A stretch of DNA of 64,000 nucleotides from Candidatus Poribacteria bacterium (lineage in GTDB: Bacteria > Poribacteria > WGA-4E > WGA-3G). Made by a program: the position numbers and the translations under genes. The DNA is taken from assembly GCA_012270795.1 (NCBI GenBank), contig JAAXHO010000067.1, forward strand, positions 1 through 64,000, written 5' to 3'. Each line of letters begins with the position of its first letter. Position 1 is the stretch's first letter. Shown in pieces: positions 33,639 to 40,115 of the stretch. Under the pieces are notes generated by a model. It saw only the letters and a list, made by a program, of their open reading frames with translations. It had not been told where the DNA came from and did no database searches.

Positions 33639-33667
33639 TTGACAACCACCGAGATTAAATATATAAT
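33639..33667 (+). promoter_or_regulatory. Consensus promoter of the MarR-like gene
   Basis: TTGACA at 33639-33644 and TATAAT at 33662-33667 with exactly 17 bp between them. Transcription should start around 33674, inside the palindrome that follows. Confidence 0.8.
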
Positions 33668-33670
33668 TTA

Positions 33671-33684
33671 TGTCGTATACGACA
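33671..33684. promoter_or_regulatory. Palindromic operator TGTCGTATACGACA
   Basis: Perfect 14-bp palindrome placed over the predicted transcription start, 33 bp before the MarR-like ATG. The position fits autorepression by the MarR protein. I saw no second copy in the window. Confidence 0.65.
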
Positions 33685-33717
33685 GAATTTACTTCATATA
33701 TAGGACGTAATTAGAAG

Positions 33718-34596
33718 ATGTCTGATAACCGGGAGTTCAATAAAGAAATTGATGTTGTCATGCGCGTGATGCGTCATGCGCAGGCATCTGTCAAATCAAG
33801 GTTTATACAGGAAGTCGTCCCCAATCGTCTGACAATTGTCCAGTTTAATGCTTTACAACATCTTCATTGGTATGGTCGTGAAAACGGAATGTACGTCAGT
33901 GAGTTAGGTGAGCATTTAGGTCTTGCACACAATACAGTTTCTGGTTTAGTTAGTAGACTTGAACGTCATGGTTGGGTTATTCGTCGTAAATGTGAAGAAG
34001 ATCGTAGGCGTGCTCGTATTCAACTTACTCCGCAATCTGAACAACTTTTCCATGAACAAGTACAACATGCAGCAGAATTTTGGGAGCATACATTTGGTCA
34101 AATGTCTCCCGAAGAACGAAATAACCTGATTGAAAGTCTAACAAGACTGAAACAGGTAATGGCGAAACCGGTGTGGCCGAGTTATGCACAATTGCATCCG
34201 CGTGATGCTGACCGTCTCCGTGAGAAGTTTGAGACAGACATAGATGAACTTGCGCAAGCAAAACTAAAACTCATCGGAATTCGGTTGATACTTGCACGAA
34301 TTGCGGAAAAACGCAATGAACACGAACTTGCGGCTTACCTTAACCAAGCCGCCTCCGAAGAGATCCGCCACACAAATCAGCTGTTTTCTCTACTTGGTCA
34401 TGGAGAACATTTTGACAAACTTCTATCATCGCTTGTTGATGAAGACAAGATAGTATATGAGGAGTTGTTGGCATTGCTTGATGATGCCCCTTGTTCTGAA
34501 GAAGACGAAGAATTAGTTATCCTTCAACAAATGCTAAAAGATAGTCATAGATATAAAAAATGGTTTCACAGAGTTCACAAACAGAAGAATCAGTGA
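33718..34596 (+). CDS. MarR family regulator fused to a rubrerythrin-like domain
   Basis: 292 residues in two parts. Residues about 15-150 form a MarR winged helix: helix-turn-helix LGEHLGLAHNTVSGLVSRLE, then the wing RRKCEEDRRRARIQLT. Residues about 170-290 look like a ferritin/rubrerythrin four-helix bundle: ARIAEKRNEHELAAYLNQAA runs into E214-E215-I-R-H218, the ExxH of helix B, and continues NQLFSLLG as in rubrerythrins. The helix A glutamate expected in a diiron site is not evident, and the last helix reads KDSHRYKKWF, so metal binding may be partial or lost. A consensus promoter and palindromic operator lie just upstream, suggesting autoregulation. I infer a metal, oxidant or redox sensor. 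The next gene is an ECF sigma factor 61 bp away. Confidence 0.8.
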   Translation: MSDNREFNKEIDVVMRVMRHAQASVKSRFIQEVVPNRLTIVQFNALQHLHWYGRENGMYVSELGEHLGLAHNTVSGLVSRLERHGWVIRRKCEEDRRRARIQLTPQSEQLFHEQVQHAAEFWEHTFGQMSPEERNNLIESLTRLKQVMAKPVWPSYAQLHPRDADRLREKFETDIDELAQAKLKLIGIRLILARIAEKRNEHELAAYLNQAASEEIRHTNQLFSLLGHGEHFDKLLSSLVDEDKIVYEELLALLDDAPCSEEDEELVILQQMLKDSHRYKKWFHRVHKQKNQ

Positions 34597-34657
34597 CTTC
34601 AATTTTATCAATGCAAAGCTGAGAAACATTTTCAACCAATAATAAAAAGAGGAGAAC

Positions 34658-35275
34658 ATGCAGTCCCAAAGTCCAGATAGTATTCCACTAACCAGTCATA
34701 AAGATGATGCCCAGTTGATTGAACAATTTCAACAAGGTGATAAGACTGTGTTTGATACACTATTTAACCGTTACCAGAAACGCACTTTTAGATTAGTGCA
34801 GCGTTTCGTTTCGAACCATGAAGATGCTCGTGATATTACGCAAGATGCTTTTATCCGTGCATATCAAGGGCTTGCAGATTTCAAAAGTCAGTGCCAGTTC
34901 TATAGTTGGCTTTACAGAATTACGGTCAATCTTTGTATAGATTTCTTAAGAAAAAAATCACGTTCGGAAGTAATGGTTTACGAAACAGGTGAATCTGATG
35001 AATTGCCGATGGCGAATTTTCCAGATTTGCGTTCAGATTCCCCAGCAAAAGCAGCCGAGAATAAAGAACTTAGAGGACAAATTCGGAAGGCTATCCGCCA
35101 GTTACCTCCGAAACAACGCCAAATTTTCATCCTACGCCACTGGGATGGGTTGTCCCTCAAGGATATAGCAGCTATAGTTGGTAGGTCTGATGGAACAGTC
35201 AAAGCACATCTTTTCCATGCACACCGTAATCTTAGGAAACATCTACTGCCGTACCTCAAAGATGCAGAGGTATAA
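34658..35275 (+). CDS. ECF-type RNA polymerase sigma factor
   Basis: 205-residue extracytoplasmic-function sigma-70 factor. Region 2 spans about residues 25-95 (FNRYQKRTFRLVQRFV, DARDITQDAFIRAYQGL, FYSWLYRITVNLCIDFLRKK). Region 4 spans about 140-195 (LPPKQRQIFILRHWDGLSLK followed by DIAAIVGRSDGTVKAHLFHA). There is no region 3. The sequence is closest to RpoE-like ECF groups. No anti-sigma gene is adjacent; the downstream 950 bp carry no gene. AGAGGAG precedes the ATG. Its position after the MarR-like gene may mean a shared transcript. Confidence 0.94.
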   Translation: MQSQSPDSIPLTSHKDDAQLIEQFQQGDKTVFDTLFNRYQKRTFRLVQRFVSNHEDARDITQDAFIRAYQGLADFKSQCQFYSWLYRITVNLCIDFLRKKSRSEVMVYETGESDELPMANFPDLRSDSPAKAAENKELRGQIRKAIRQLPPKQRQIFILRHWDGLSLKDIAAIVGRSDGTVKAHLFHAHRNLRKHLLPYLKDAEV

Positions 35276-37238: not shown

Positions 37239-38525
37239 ATGAATAGTAAACAGGAATTAGCAAGAACAGTACTAAGTTTAATGTGCATATCTTTGTTTTT
37301 ATGCTTCGGATGTTCAAACATTGACTCTGTAGTTAAGGACGACGGACAGATCAAGGACGATACACAAATTGACCCTGAAGATGATACACCTATCGTTGTT
37401 GATGCAGACCTTGTGCTTGGAAACACGGAATTTGGTATTAACCTCTTCAAAGAAATATATAAGACAGATAATGACATGAATATCTTTATCTCCCCTTATA
37501 GTGTTTCGGTTGCATTGGCAATGACTCTAAACGGGGCAGCCGGCGATACCGAACAAGCAATGACTGATTCCCTTCAACTGCAAGGTTTATCCTCCGAAAC
37601 GATAAATGCGGCTTTTTTACAAATGCAGGAAGCACTTCAGACATCAGACCCAAAAGTAACACTTTCAATTGCGAACTCATTATGGGGAAATGATGGTATC
37701 ACATTTGAATCAGATTTTCTACAACGGAACGAAAAATTTTTCAATGCTGAAGTCTCAATTCTTGATTTTTTAGACCCGAGCACATTAATAACAATTAATC
37801 AGTGGGTAAATGATAATACGAACAGTAAAATTCCGACAATTCTTGACAGTATAGAAAGAAATGCAGTGTTATACCTGATAAATGCAATCTACTTCAAGGG
37901 TACGTGGCAGACAGAATTTAAACCAGAAAACACACGCGATGGGACATTCAATCTTGCAGACGGTAGCCAAAAACAGGTGCCGATGATGTTTAGGTCAGGA
38001 GGCAAGTACTCTCATTACCACAGCGATACTGTTCAAGCCATTAGTCTTCCTTATGGTGAAGGTCAGTTCAGTATGTATATTTTCGTTCCTACAAACCAGT
38101 CTGACCTGGATGCTTTTTTAGCTACTTTGACACCCGAGAACTGGGAAAACTGGATGACAGAATTTAATGAACGGCAAATGGATCTCAGAATGCCAAAGTT
38201 TAAGGTGAAGTATGGCGCAAAAGAACTAAAGGATGTGCTGATAACTCTCGGTATGGGTGTAGCCTTTGATGCTGGTCGTGCAGATTTCAGTCGTATGGCA
38301 GATTTAGAGGATTTGGGAAGTAATCTGTATATTGACACAGTTTTGCATAAAACTTTCGTTGAGGTAAATGAGGAAGGTACGGAAGCTGCTGCTGCCACTG
38401 TTGTTGGAATCGTAAAGACGAGTGCTCCACCTCAATTCAATGTTGATCGTCCCTTTTTCTATGCCATTCGTGACAATGAAACAGGAACGGTGCTGTTTAT
38501 GGGAACAGTCATAGATCCGTCATAA
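37239..38525 (+). CDS. Serpin-family lipoprotein protease inhibitor
   Basis: 428-residue serpin with a lipoprotein signal peptide (lipobox CFGC, C25) and an acidic linker rich in Asp to about residue 55. The serpin core runs from FGINLFKEI to the C-terminus, with NIFISPYSVSVALAMTLNGA, NAIYFKGTWQ and PFFYAIRDNETGTVLFMG. The reactive-loop hinge E-E-G-T-E-A-A-A-A-T fits an inhibitory serpin. Counting 17 residues from E378 places P1 at T394 and P1' at S395 (VKTSAPP). Bacterial serpins are uncommon and usually thought to protect against host or neighbour proteases. A VWA lipoprotein follows 41 bp later. Confidence 0.93.
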   Translation: MNSKQELARTVLSLMCISLFLCFGCSNIDSVVKDDGQIKDDTQIDPEDDTPIVVDADLVLGNTEFGINLFKEIYKTDNDMNIFISPYSVSVALAMTLNGAAGDTEQAMTDSLQLQGLSSETINAAFLQMQEALQTSDPKVTLSIANSLWGNDGITFESDFLQRNEKFFNAEVSILDFLDPSTLITINQWVNDNTNSKIPTILDSIERNAVLYLINAIYFKGTWQTEFKPENTRDGTFNLADGSQKQVPMMFRSGGKYSHYHSDTVQAISLPYGEGQFSMYIFVPTNQSDLDAFLATLTPENWENWMTEFNERQMDLRMPKFKVKYGAKELKDVLITLGMGVAFDAGRADFSRMADLEDLGSNLYIDTVLHKTFVEVNEEGTEAAAATVVGIVKTSAPPQFNVDRPFFYAIRDNETGTVLFMGTVIDPS

Positions 38526-38566: not shown

Positions 38567-40115
38567 ATGCGGACTAAAATTAGCAATTACATTTTTGTGT
38601 TTTTACCCGTTATATGCTTTCTAACACTTTCTTTCTATATCGGATGCGGTTCTGATAATAGCAAGGAATATTTACAGTCTTCGACTGTTACACTTGAGGA
38701 TTCTGCCTATACAGGATTAAACCCTCCGAACAATGCTGCTTATGACGATGTCTTTTTTCAGGAATACGGAACAAATCCTTTCATAGATACTGAAGATGAT
38801 CACCTTTCCACCTTCGGCATGGATGTTGACACCGCATCCTATTCTATTACACGTCGTTACCTAAATGATGGTAATTTACCGCCGCGGGATGCAGTCCGAG
38901 TAGAAGAGTTTGTCAATACCTTTGATTACAATTATAAACCACCTTCTGATGGGGCATTTGCTGTATATATTGAAGGTTCACCTTCTCGATTTGGCGATGG
39001 TAAGCGACTCCAATTAATGCGAATTGGCATTCAAGGTCGCGTGATAGCTGACGAAAATCGGAAAAACGCGATATTGACCTTTGTTATTGATGTATCGGGT
39101 TCAATGGCACTTGAGAACCGGGTTAGGTCTGGTAAAACGGTCATTGACACTATTAGTTGATCAACTACGTCCAGGTGACAAAGTTGGCATTGTTGTCTAT
39201 GGCACTGAGGCACGGACGATCCTACCACTCACTGGGATTGAAGCACGCGGCGAAATATTGCATGCAATTAACGCACTTGAACCAGAAGGTGCAACGAATG
39301 CTGAGGCAGGACTAAGACTCGGGTACACCCTTGCACTGCGAAGTGCAAAGTTTGGAAGTATCAATCGCGTGATACTTTGTTCTGATGGTGTCGCAAACGT
39401 AGGTGAGACCGGTTCTGATGCTATCCTCAAAAAGATTCGCGCACACGTTGAAGAAGGGATTACATTAACAACAATCGGATTCGGCATGGGGAACTACAAC
39501 GATATTCTCATGGAAAGGTTGGCTAATGATGGCAACGGAAGTTATGCTTATGTGGATAACCTGAATGAAGCAAGGCGTATTTTCGTTGAGAACCTGACCG
39601 GAACCCTACAAATCATCGCAAAAGATGCAAAAGTTCAGGTTGATTTCAACCCACAGACAGTCAGTCGTTTCCGGTTGATCGGCTATGAAAACCGGCGACT
39701 TGATCATGAAGATTTTCGAGATGATGATGTAGATGCAGGAGAAATTGGTTCAGGACACAGTGTCACTGCGCTTTACGAGATTAAACTTCATGAGGGGGCA
39801 GATGGAAAACTTGCAACAGTTTTCTTGCGACATCAAAACCCCGACACTTCTCGTGTCACCGAAATTAACAAAGATTTTTTCACATCAGATCTGAAGAGTA
39901 CATTTGAAGCAGCATCTGCTGAGTTTCAGTTTGTCGCAGCAATTGCAGAATTCGCTGAAATACTTCGTGGGAGTTATTGGGCACAAGAGGGCAATTTAGA
40001 AGATGTACAGCAGACTATTGCAGAAATCCAACCTCATATTAATAATAAGCAGATAGACGAACTCACAATGTTGGTGAATAGAGCAATGGACCTGAAAACA
40101 TATCAAGTTCAATAA
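38567..40115 (+). pseudogene. VWA/DUF3520 lipoprotein interrupted by a frameshift
   Basis: The reading frame from 38567 encodes a lipoprotein signal (YIGC, C27), the N-terminal VWA-associated domain (FGMDVDTASYSITRRYLNDG) and the start of a VWA domain with MIDAS motif DVSGSM. It then runs into a stop at 39158-39160. The continuation (LGLVKRSLTLLVDQLRPGDK, then the rest of VWA and a DUF3520 C-terminus) is in another frame to 40115. Removing one G from GGG at 39120-39122 joins them into about 516 residues, like YfbK-type proteins. It may be a real mutation, an assembly error or, less likely, slippage. It heads a run of closely spaced envelope genes. Confidence 0.85.

Follow-up and report, generated by a model that had tools for sequence, protein, structure and literature searches.

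The window, by which we mean the whole analysed stretch of 64,000 nt, comes from a MAG of Candidatus Poribacteria, which are sponge-associated bacteria, and encodes a 292-residue protein in which a MarR winged helix is fused to a ferritin-like four-helix bundle with several diiron ligand positions replaced. Its gene stands between a promoter with two inverted-repeat boxes and the gene of an ECF sigma factor. We consider it fairly probable that the fusion is an autorepressor gating this sigma factor, with the bundle serving as a pseudo-diiron sensor or as a dimerisation element. Our homologue set comprised 44 sequences, namely 41 from families f1 and f4 (the window's lineage), one from f7 and two from f6 (L048 and L049). 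The features discussed below are, in window coordinates:

33639 to 33667, forward strand: sigma-70 promoter TTGACA-17-TATAAT, 12/12 matches to the consensus, with −35 and −10 conserved across f1
33669 to 33686, no strand assigned: candidate operator box 1 over the expected transcription start, with a conserved core and the core palindrome TGTCGTATACGACA at 33671-33684 (centre 33677.5)
33691 to 33708, no strand assigned: candidate operator box 2, inverted repeat ACTTCATATATAGGACGT (centre 33699.5), 22 bp from box 1
33718 to 34596, forward strand: MarR-ferritin-like fusion regulator, 292 aa, ATG start
33745 to 34164, forward strand: MarR dimerisation and winged-helix DNA-binding part, residues 10-149, recognised by Pfam, by PDB MarR structures and by helices and wing in the AF2 model
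34168 to 34203, forward strand: conserved linker PVWPSYAQLHPR, residues 151-162
34207 to 34593, forward strand: ferritin/rubrerythrin-like four-helix bundle, residues 164-292
34261 to 34263, forward strand: K182, where helix A of both f6 sequences has its glutamate ligand (E); the other 42 of the 44 sequences have K
34357 to 34371, forward strand: EEIRH, residues 214-218, the helix B ExxH (E215, H218), with H218 in 43 of 44 sequences
34540 to 34554, forward strand: D275-S276-H277-R278-Y279, a degenerate helix D ExxH
34658 to 35275, forward strand: ECF sigma factor, 205 aa, second gene of the predicted operon

An earlier, sequence-only reading had placed a MarR winged helix and an EEIRH motif in one 292-residue chain, and both are indeed present. 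The N-terminal half scored above the Pfam cut-offs of MarR (PF01047, 4.4e-11) and MarR_2 (PF12802, 2.2e-10), and MarR structures came out on top of both the PDB sequence comparison and the Foldseek search, with 2rdp and 2a61 as the nearest solved structures by sequence. Since all matches to the NCBIfam MarR equivalog models lay far below their cut-offs, no characterised MarR subfamily fits. The fusion has the N-terminal dimerisation helices and winged helix of MarR one-component regulators such as 2rdp and 2a61, as well as a predicted palindromic operator over its own promoter, but adds a ferritin-like C-terminal extension of 140 residues. The AF2 model of the full chain was of moderate quality (pLDDT 74, pTM 0.40). 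Between the two halves, linker residues P151, W153, P154, H160 and P161 are invariant in 44/44 sequences, so that the fusion probably arose in a single event.

A phylum-wide search, the one that we carried out in depth, detected the full-length fusion in 62 of 85 Poribacteria genomes, in addition to two partial matches spanning positions 108-289 and 3-146 of the profile. The gene is single-copy in its carriers; the remaining matches were plain MarR proteins. One scan of genome contigs returned close relatives only, the named ones being Candidatus Poribacteria MAGs, and among plasmids no match covered 80% of the query, all being plain MarR or plain rubrerythrin proteins. In the literature searched, from which subscription papers were absent, we found no paper on a fusion between a MarR regulator and a ferritin-like domain, and no MarR-ferritin-like partner of an ECF sigma factor.

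The nature of the C-terminal domain, guessed from a single motif in the earlier reading to be rubrerythrin-like, was borne out through the homologues. The window protein itself matched no Pfam ferritin model. When the 44 homologues were scanned with E-values up to 5, Rubrerythrin was found in 11 and Ferritin in 10 of them; L048 and L049 exceeded the curated cut-offs of both Rubrerythrin (PF02915; 5e-9) and Ferritin (PF00210), and L041, from f4, exceeded that of Ferritin. Similarly, comparing a profile of the domain with the PDB led to designed diiron proteins, symerythrin, bacterioferritins and ferritins, with modest E-values. Structure prediction of the C-terminus, which the earlier reading had proposed as a check, yielded four helices for the isolated domain (AF2 pLDDT 87), and a Foldseek search with this model was led by ferritins and rubrerythrins, reaching a TM-score of 0.68 to diMn-sulerythrin at E-values that were not significant (best E 0.34). 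Four-helix bundles match one another easily. It is thus the sequence profiles that argue for ferritin-like homology, and the fold comparison is consistent with it. No rubredoxin domain was found by Pfam in the fusion chain. As a separate observation, no rubrerythrin (PF02915) was detected in the whole assembly of the window genome, whereas 9 of 14 control genomes have one.

The f6 sequences reveal what the bundle may have been. Aligning the L049 domain to sulerythrin (1j30) placed E215/H218 on E53/H56, and the helix A glutamate of L049 on the helix C glutamate of the second half-repeat. In window numbering, both f6 proteins carry E182, E215xxH218, E243 and E276xxH279, by sequence a complete ligand set with diiron ligands on all four helices, although this intact state is represented by two sequences of one family. 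Because of this set the ancestor of the bundle was probably a metal binder. By contrast, K182, E215, D243 and Y279 are common to all 41 f1 and f4 sequences, which have serine or asparagine at 276; 40 of the 41 also have H218. The one f7 sequence shows a mixture (K182, L215, H218, R243, V276, H279), and D275 is invariant in 44/44. A tree built without an outgroup separated f6 from f7, f4 and f1 with full support; being unrooted, it cannot root this series, and we take its polarity from the homology of the bundle to ferritins. The window bundle has the four helices and helix B ExxH alignment of rubrerythrin, sulerythrin and bacterioferritin, whose full ligand set recurs in f6, but differs from them in being fused to a DNA-binding domain, in lacking rubredoxin and in its replaced helix A and helix D ligands.

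The loss of the helix A ligand, noticed in the sequence-only reading, is real (E to K182), but the damage extends further. As helix D has lost its ExxH too (S276, Y279), a canonical diiron centre cannot form in the window's lineage, judging from the alignment, and the proposal of the same reading that the protein senses iron, oxygen or peroxide is unsupported in that form. One could still imagine a diiron centre with unusual ligands that senses one of these signals in the window protein, given its ferritin-like ancestry, the retained helix B ExxH and the f6 homologues with all ligands; we regard this as very improbable, since helix A Glu is replaced by Lys, helix D Glu by Ser or Asn and His by Tyr in 41/41 f1 and f4 sequences. 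Diiron-based oxygen or peroxide sensing is accordingly unlikely in the window's lineage, while these sequence data make it plausible in f6.

Of the ligand set, the window protein retains E215, H218 and D243, beside the invariant D275, and this remnant could hold one metal. The bundle is also no decaying relic, since its dN/dS within f1 equals that of the MarR half (0.070 versus 0.068, with dS near 1). A mononuclear sensor, with a single Fe, Mn or Zn bound by E215, H218, D243 and perhaps D275 and with DNA released when this metal is loaded or oxidised, would account for this strong purifying selection, and for the near-invariance of the four residues in the 41 f1 and f4 sequences despite the loss of the other ligands. 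Nevertheless, K182, at the position of the helix A glutamate of f6, would bring a positive charge close to the site; D275 is more likely a second-shell residue, since f6 keeps it just as strictly although E276 should be the ligand there; and f7 has neither E215 nor D243. We therefore give this alternative roughly one chance in a handful.

In the reading we prefer, the metal cluster of the window's lineage would have given way to a fixed core of K182, E215, H218, D243, S276 and Y279, in which lysine and carboxylates probably form a network as in ferritin L chains. The bundle would then serve for sensing or dimerisation without metal, or with one metal at most, and not as an oxygen-reactive diiron centre. 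The ferritin L chain belongs to an iron-storage cage and has its lysine on helix B, whereas the window protein is a regulator with the lysine on helix A; a salt bridge in its bundle is suggested by this analogy. In the mammalian L chain, the ferroxidase centre has been lost and a Lys salt bridge, K58-E103, is found instead (PMC2603009). More tentatively, and with somewhat less than even chances, the fusions might form one MarR and ferritin-like sensor family, with a true diiron sensor in f6 and a metal-independent pseudo-diiron sensor gating an ECF sigma factor in another lineage.

Upstream of the gene, the consensus promoter described in the earlier reading was confirmed, with −35 TTGACA at 33639-33644, a 17-nt spacer and −10 TATAAT at 33662-33667; other promoter-like matches in the region score 9. 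Directly behind it lies the perfect palindrome TGTCGTATACGACA, as that reading had also stated, and nowhere else in the 5.18-Mb assembly does it recur exactly. Allowing two mismatches at most gave no excess of sites in the assembly (13 forward, compared to 26 for a reversed control pattern), and within the window matches with up to three mismatches occurred at chance level, so the case for an operator rests on conservation. A search upstream of homologues, likewise proposed earlier, provided this: the core TCGTATACGA precedes the fusion with at most one mismatch in 38 of the 42 ECF-linked loci and with at most two in the other four. Neither result that the earlier reading had named as refuting it, another C-terminal fold or an unconserved palindrome, was obtained. 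By family, it has at most one mismatch in all f1 loci but one and at most two in f4, and is perfect in f7, upstream of L047, whose protein is 37% identical to that of the window. It is even kept in the f1 genus g2, despite a leader that is longer by some 80-100 nt. No such site was found at either f6 locus. The half-site TCGTA may resemble PecS-type operators, a likeness that plays no part in our reading.

We claim no wider regulon of this operator, as nearly all further near-perfect copies in the window's genome and its relatives fall within coding sequence, where they often represent Ile-Val-Tyr-Asp codons. Conservation upstream of the fusion, combined with this near-confinement to coding sequence elsewhere, points to autoregulation. 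One near-perfect copy, TGTCGTATACGATA in genome G008 (L107:3120-3133), is intergenic, about 60 bp before a 350-aa ORF, and was not observed in relatives.

The earlier reading knew one operator; box 1 stood, and a second box 22 bp away had been missed. As a palindromic centre, position +22 ranks first or second in each of the two f1 subsets, and in f4 it comes second among matches to the box 1 matrix; in the window itself, box 2 is only partly symmetric. Two boxes 22 bp apart, on the same face of the helix, would also suit a bundle that merely dimerises or tetramerises and so locks dimers onto both boxes, the effector binding in the usual interdomain MarR pocket. The complete MarR domain and the lost ligand residues are in line with such a scaffold, which would have no obvious need to keep the polar core E215/H218/D243/D275 and sits poorly with the probable metal-binding ancestor indicated by f6. 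We would put this possibility at about one in four.

The gene directly behind the fusion was overlooked in the sequence-only reading, whose regulator and promoter-operator were otherwise supported. It encodes a sigma factor with regions 2 and 4 only (Sigma70_r2, PF04542, 3.6e-18; Sigma70_r4_2, PF08281, 9.4e-18; TIGR02937 above its cut-off), as expected for the ECF class, and is preceded by a strong Shine-Dalgarno sequence, AGGAG, at 34650-34654. In 42/42 f1, f4 and f7 loci checked, an ECF gene is the next gene on the same strand; in f7, the fusion stop and the ECF start overlap (ATGA). The gene upstream of the fusion varies: most f1 loci have an ABC-F ATPase gene there, and several f4 loci a divergent lactate racemase-like one. 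The ECF orthologue also tracks the fusion, both being present together and absent together: in the f1 genomes G010, G022 and G026, which have no fusion, the best ECF matches are paralogues. Some of these absences could be due to gaps in the assemblies. The ECF gene is the most likely target of the regulator.

As a side observation, the gap between the two genes (34597-34657), and likewise that of L007-L037, often contains an inverted repeat that immediately precedes the Shine-Dalgarno sequence, for example GCTGAAAATCATTTCAGC in L007 and GGCCGC...GCGGCC in L011, possibly an intercistronic mRNA hairpin.

No anti-sigma gene was recognised among the genes neighbouring the ECF gene. Together with the linked regulator gene, this matches the arrangement of transcriptionally regulated ECF sigma factors, a known mode of control without an anti-sigma factor (e.g. 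HrpL, or ECF203 and ECF265 with TetR and PadR neighbours, respectively; PMC8999054), although the partner here is a MarR-ferritin-like fusion. Alternatively, the fusion might double as a cytoplasmic anti-sigma factor, binding the ECF protein directly and so controlling both sigma synthesis and activity. The strict gene pairing, the joint absence and the missing anti-sigma gene would agree with this, but no anti-sigma domain was detected in the fusion, the conserved operator already suffices for transcriptional control, and the f6 fusion adjoins an exporter gene and not a sigma gene; the chances of such a dual role appear slim. In f6, the fusion is followed by the gene of an MsbA-like ABC exporter and that of a DUF1854 protein (L048:3393-6162; L049:2485-5285). 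The L048 pair resembles one associated with cyanophycin metabolism, with scores below the NCBIfam cut-offs.

It is very likely that the fusion represses its own gene and the sigma-factor gene that follows. As a one-component repressor, a MarR dimer bearing a C-terminal ferritin-like bundle would bind the two inverted-repeat boxes, about two helical turns apart over the transcription start, and bound dimers would block RNA polymerase there, shutting off a two-gene operon in which the regulator would be co-transcribed with an ECF sigma factor that has no adjacent anti-sigma gene. A signal received at the bundle or in the MarR pocket would abolish DNA binding, allowing the sigma factor to accumulate and switch on its regulon. 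If true, this would be a new route coupling a ferritin-type bundle straight to transcription, and the series from full to degenerate ligand sets would offer a natural test of a metal sensor turning into a metal-free one. With the sigma factor as its likely output, the system could also serve as an entry point to stress control in uncultured sponge symbionts.

Two further loci of the window deserve mention. A YfbK-like von Willebrand protein at 38567-40115 is split over two overlapping frames (vWF_A at 38567-39160; VWA and YfbK_C at 39081-40115), due to either a frameshift or an assembly error. At 37239-38525, this sponge-associated bacterium encodes a serpin (PF00079, E 3.6e-121) whose N-terminus is lipoprotein-like.
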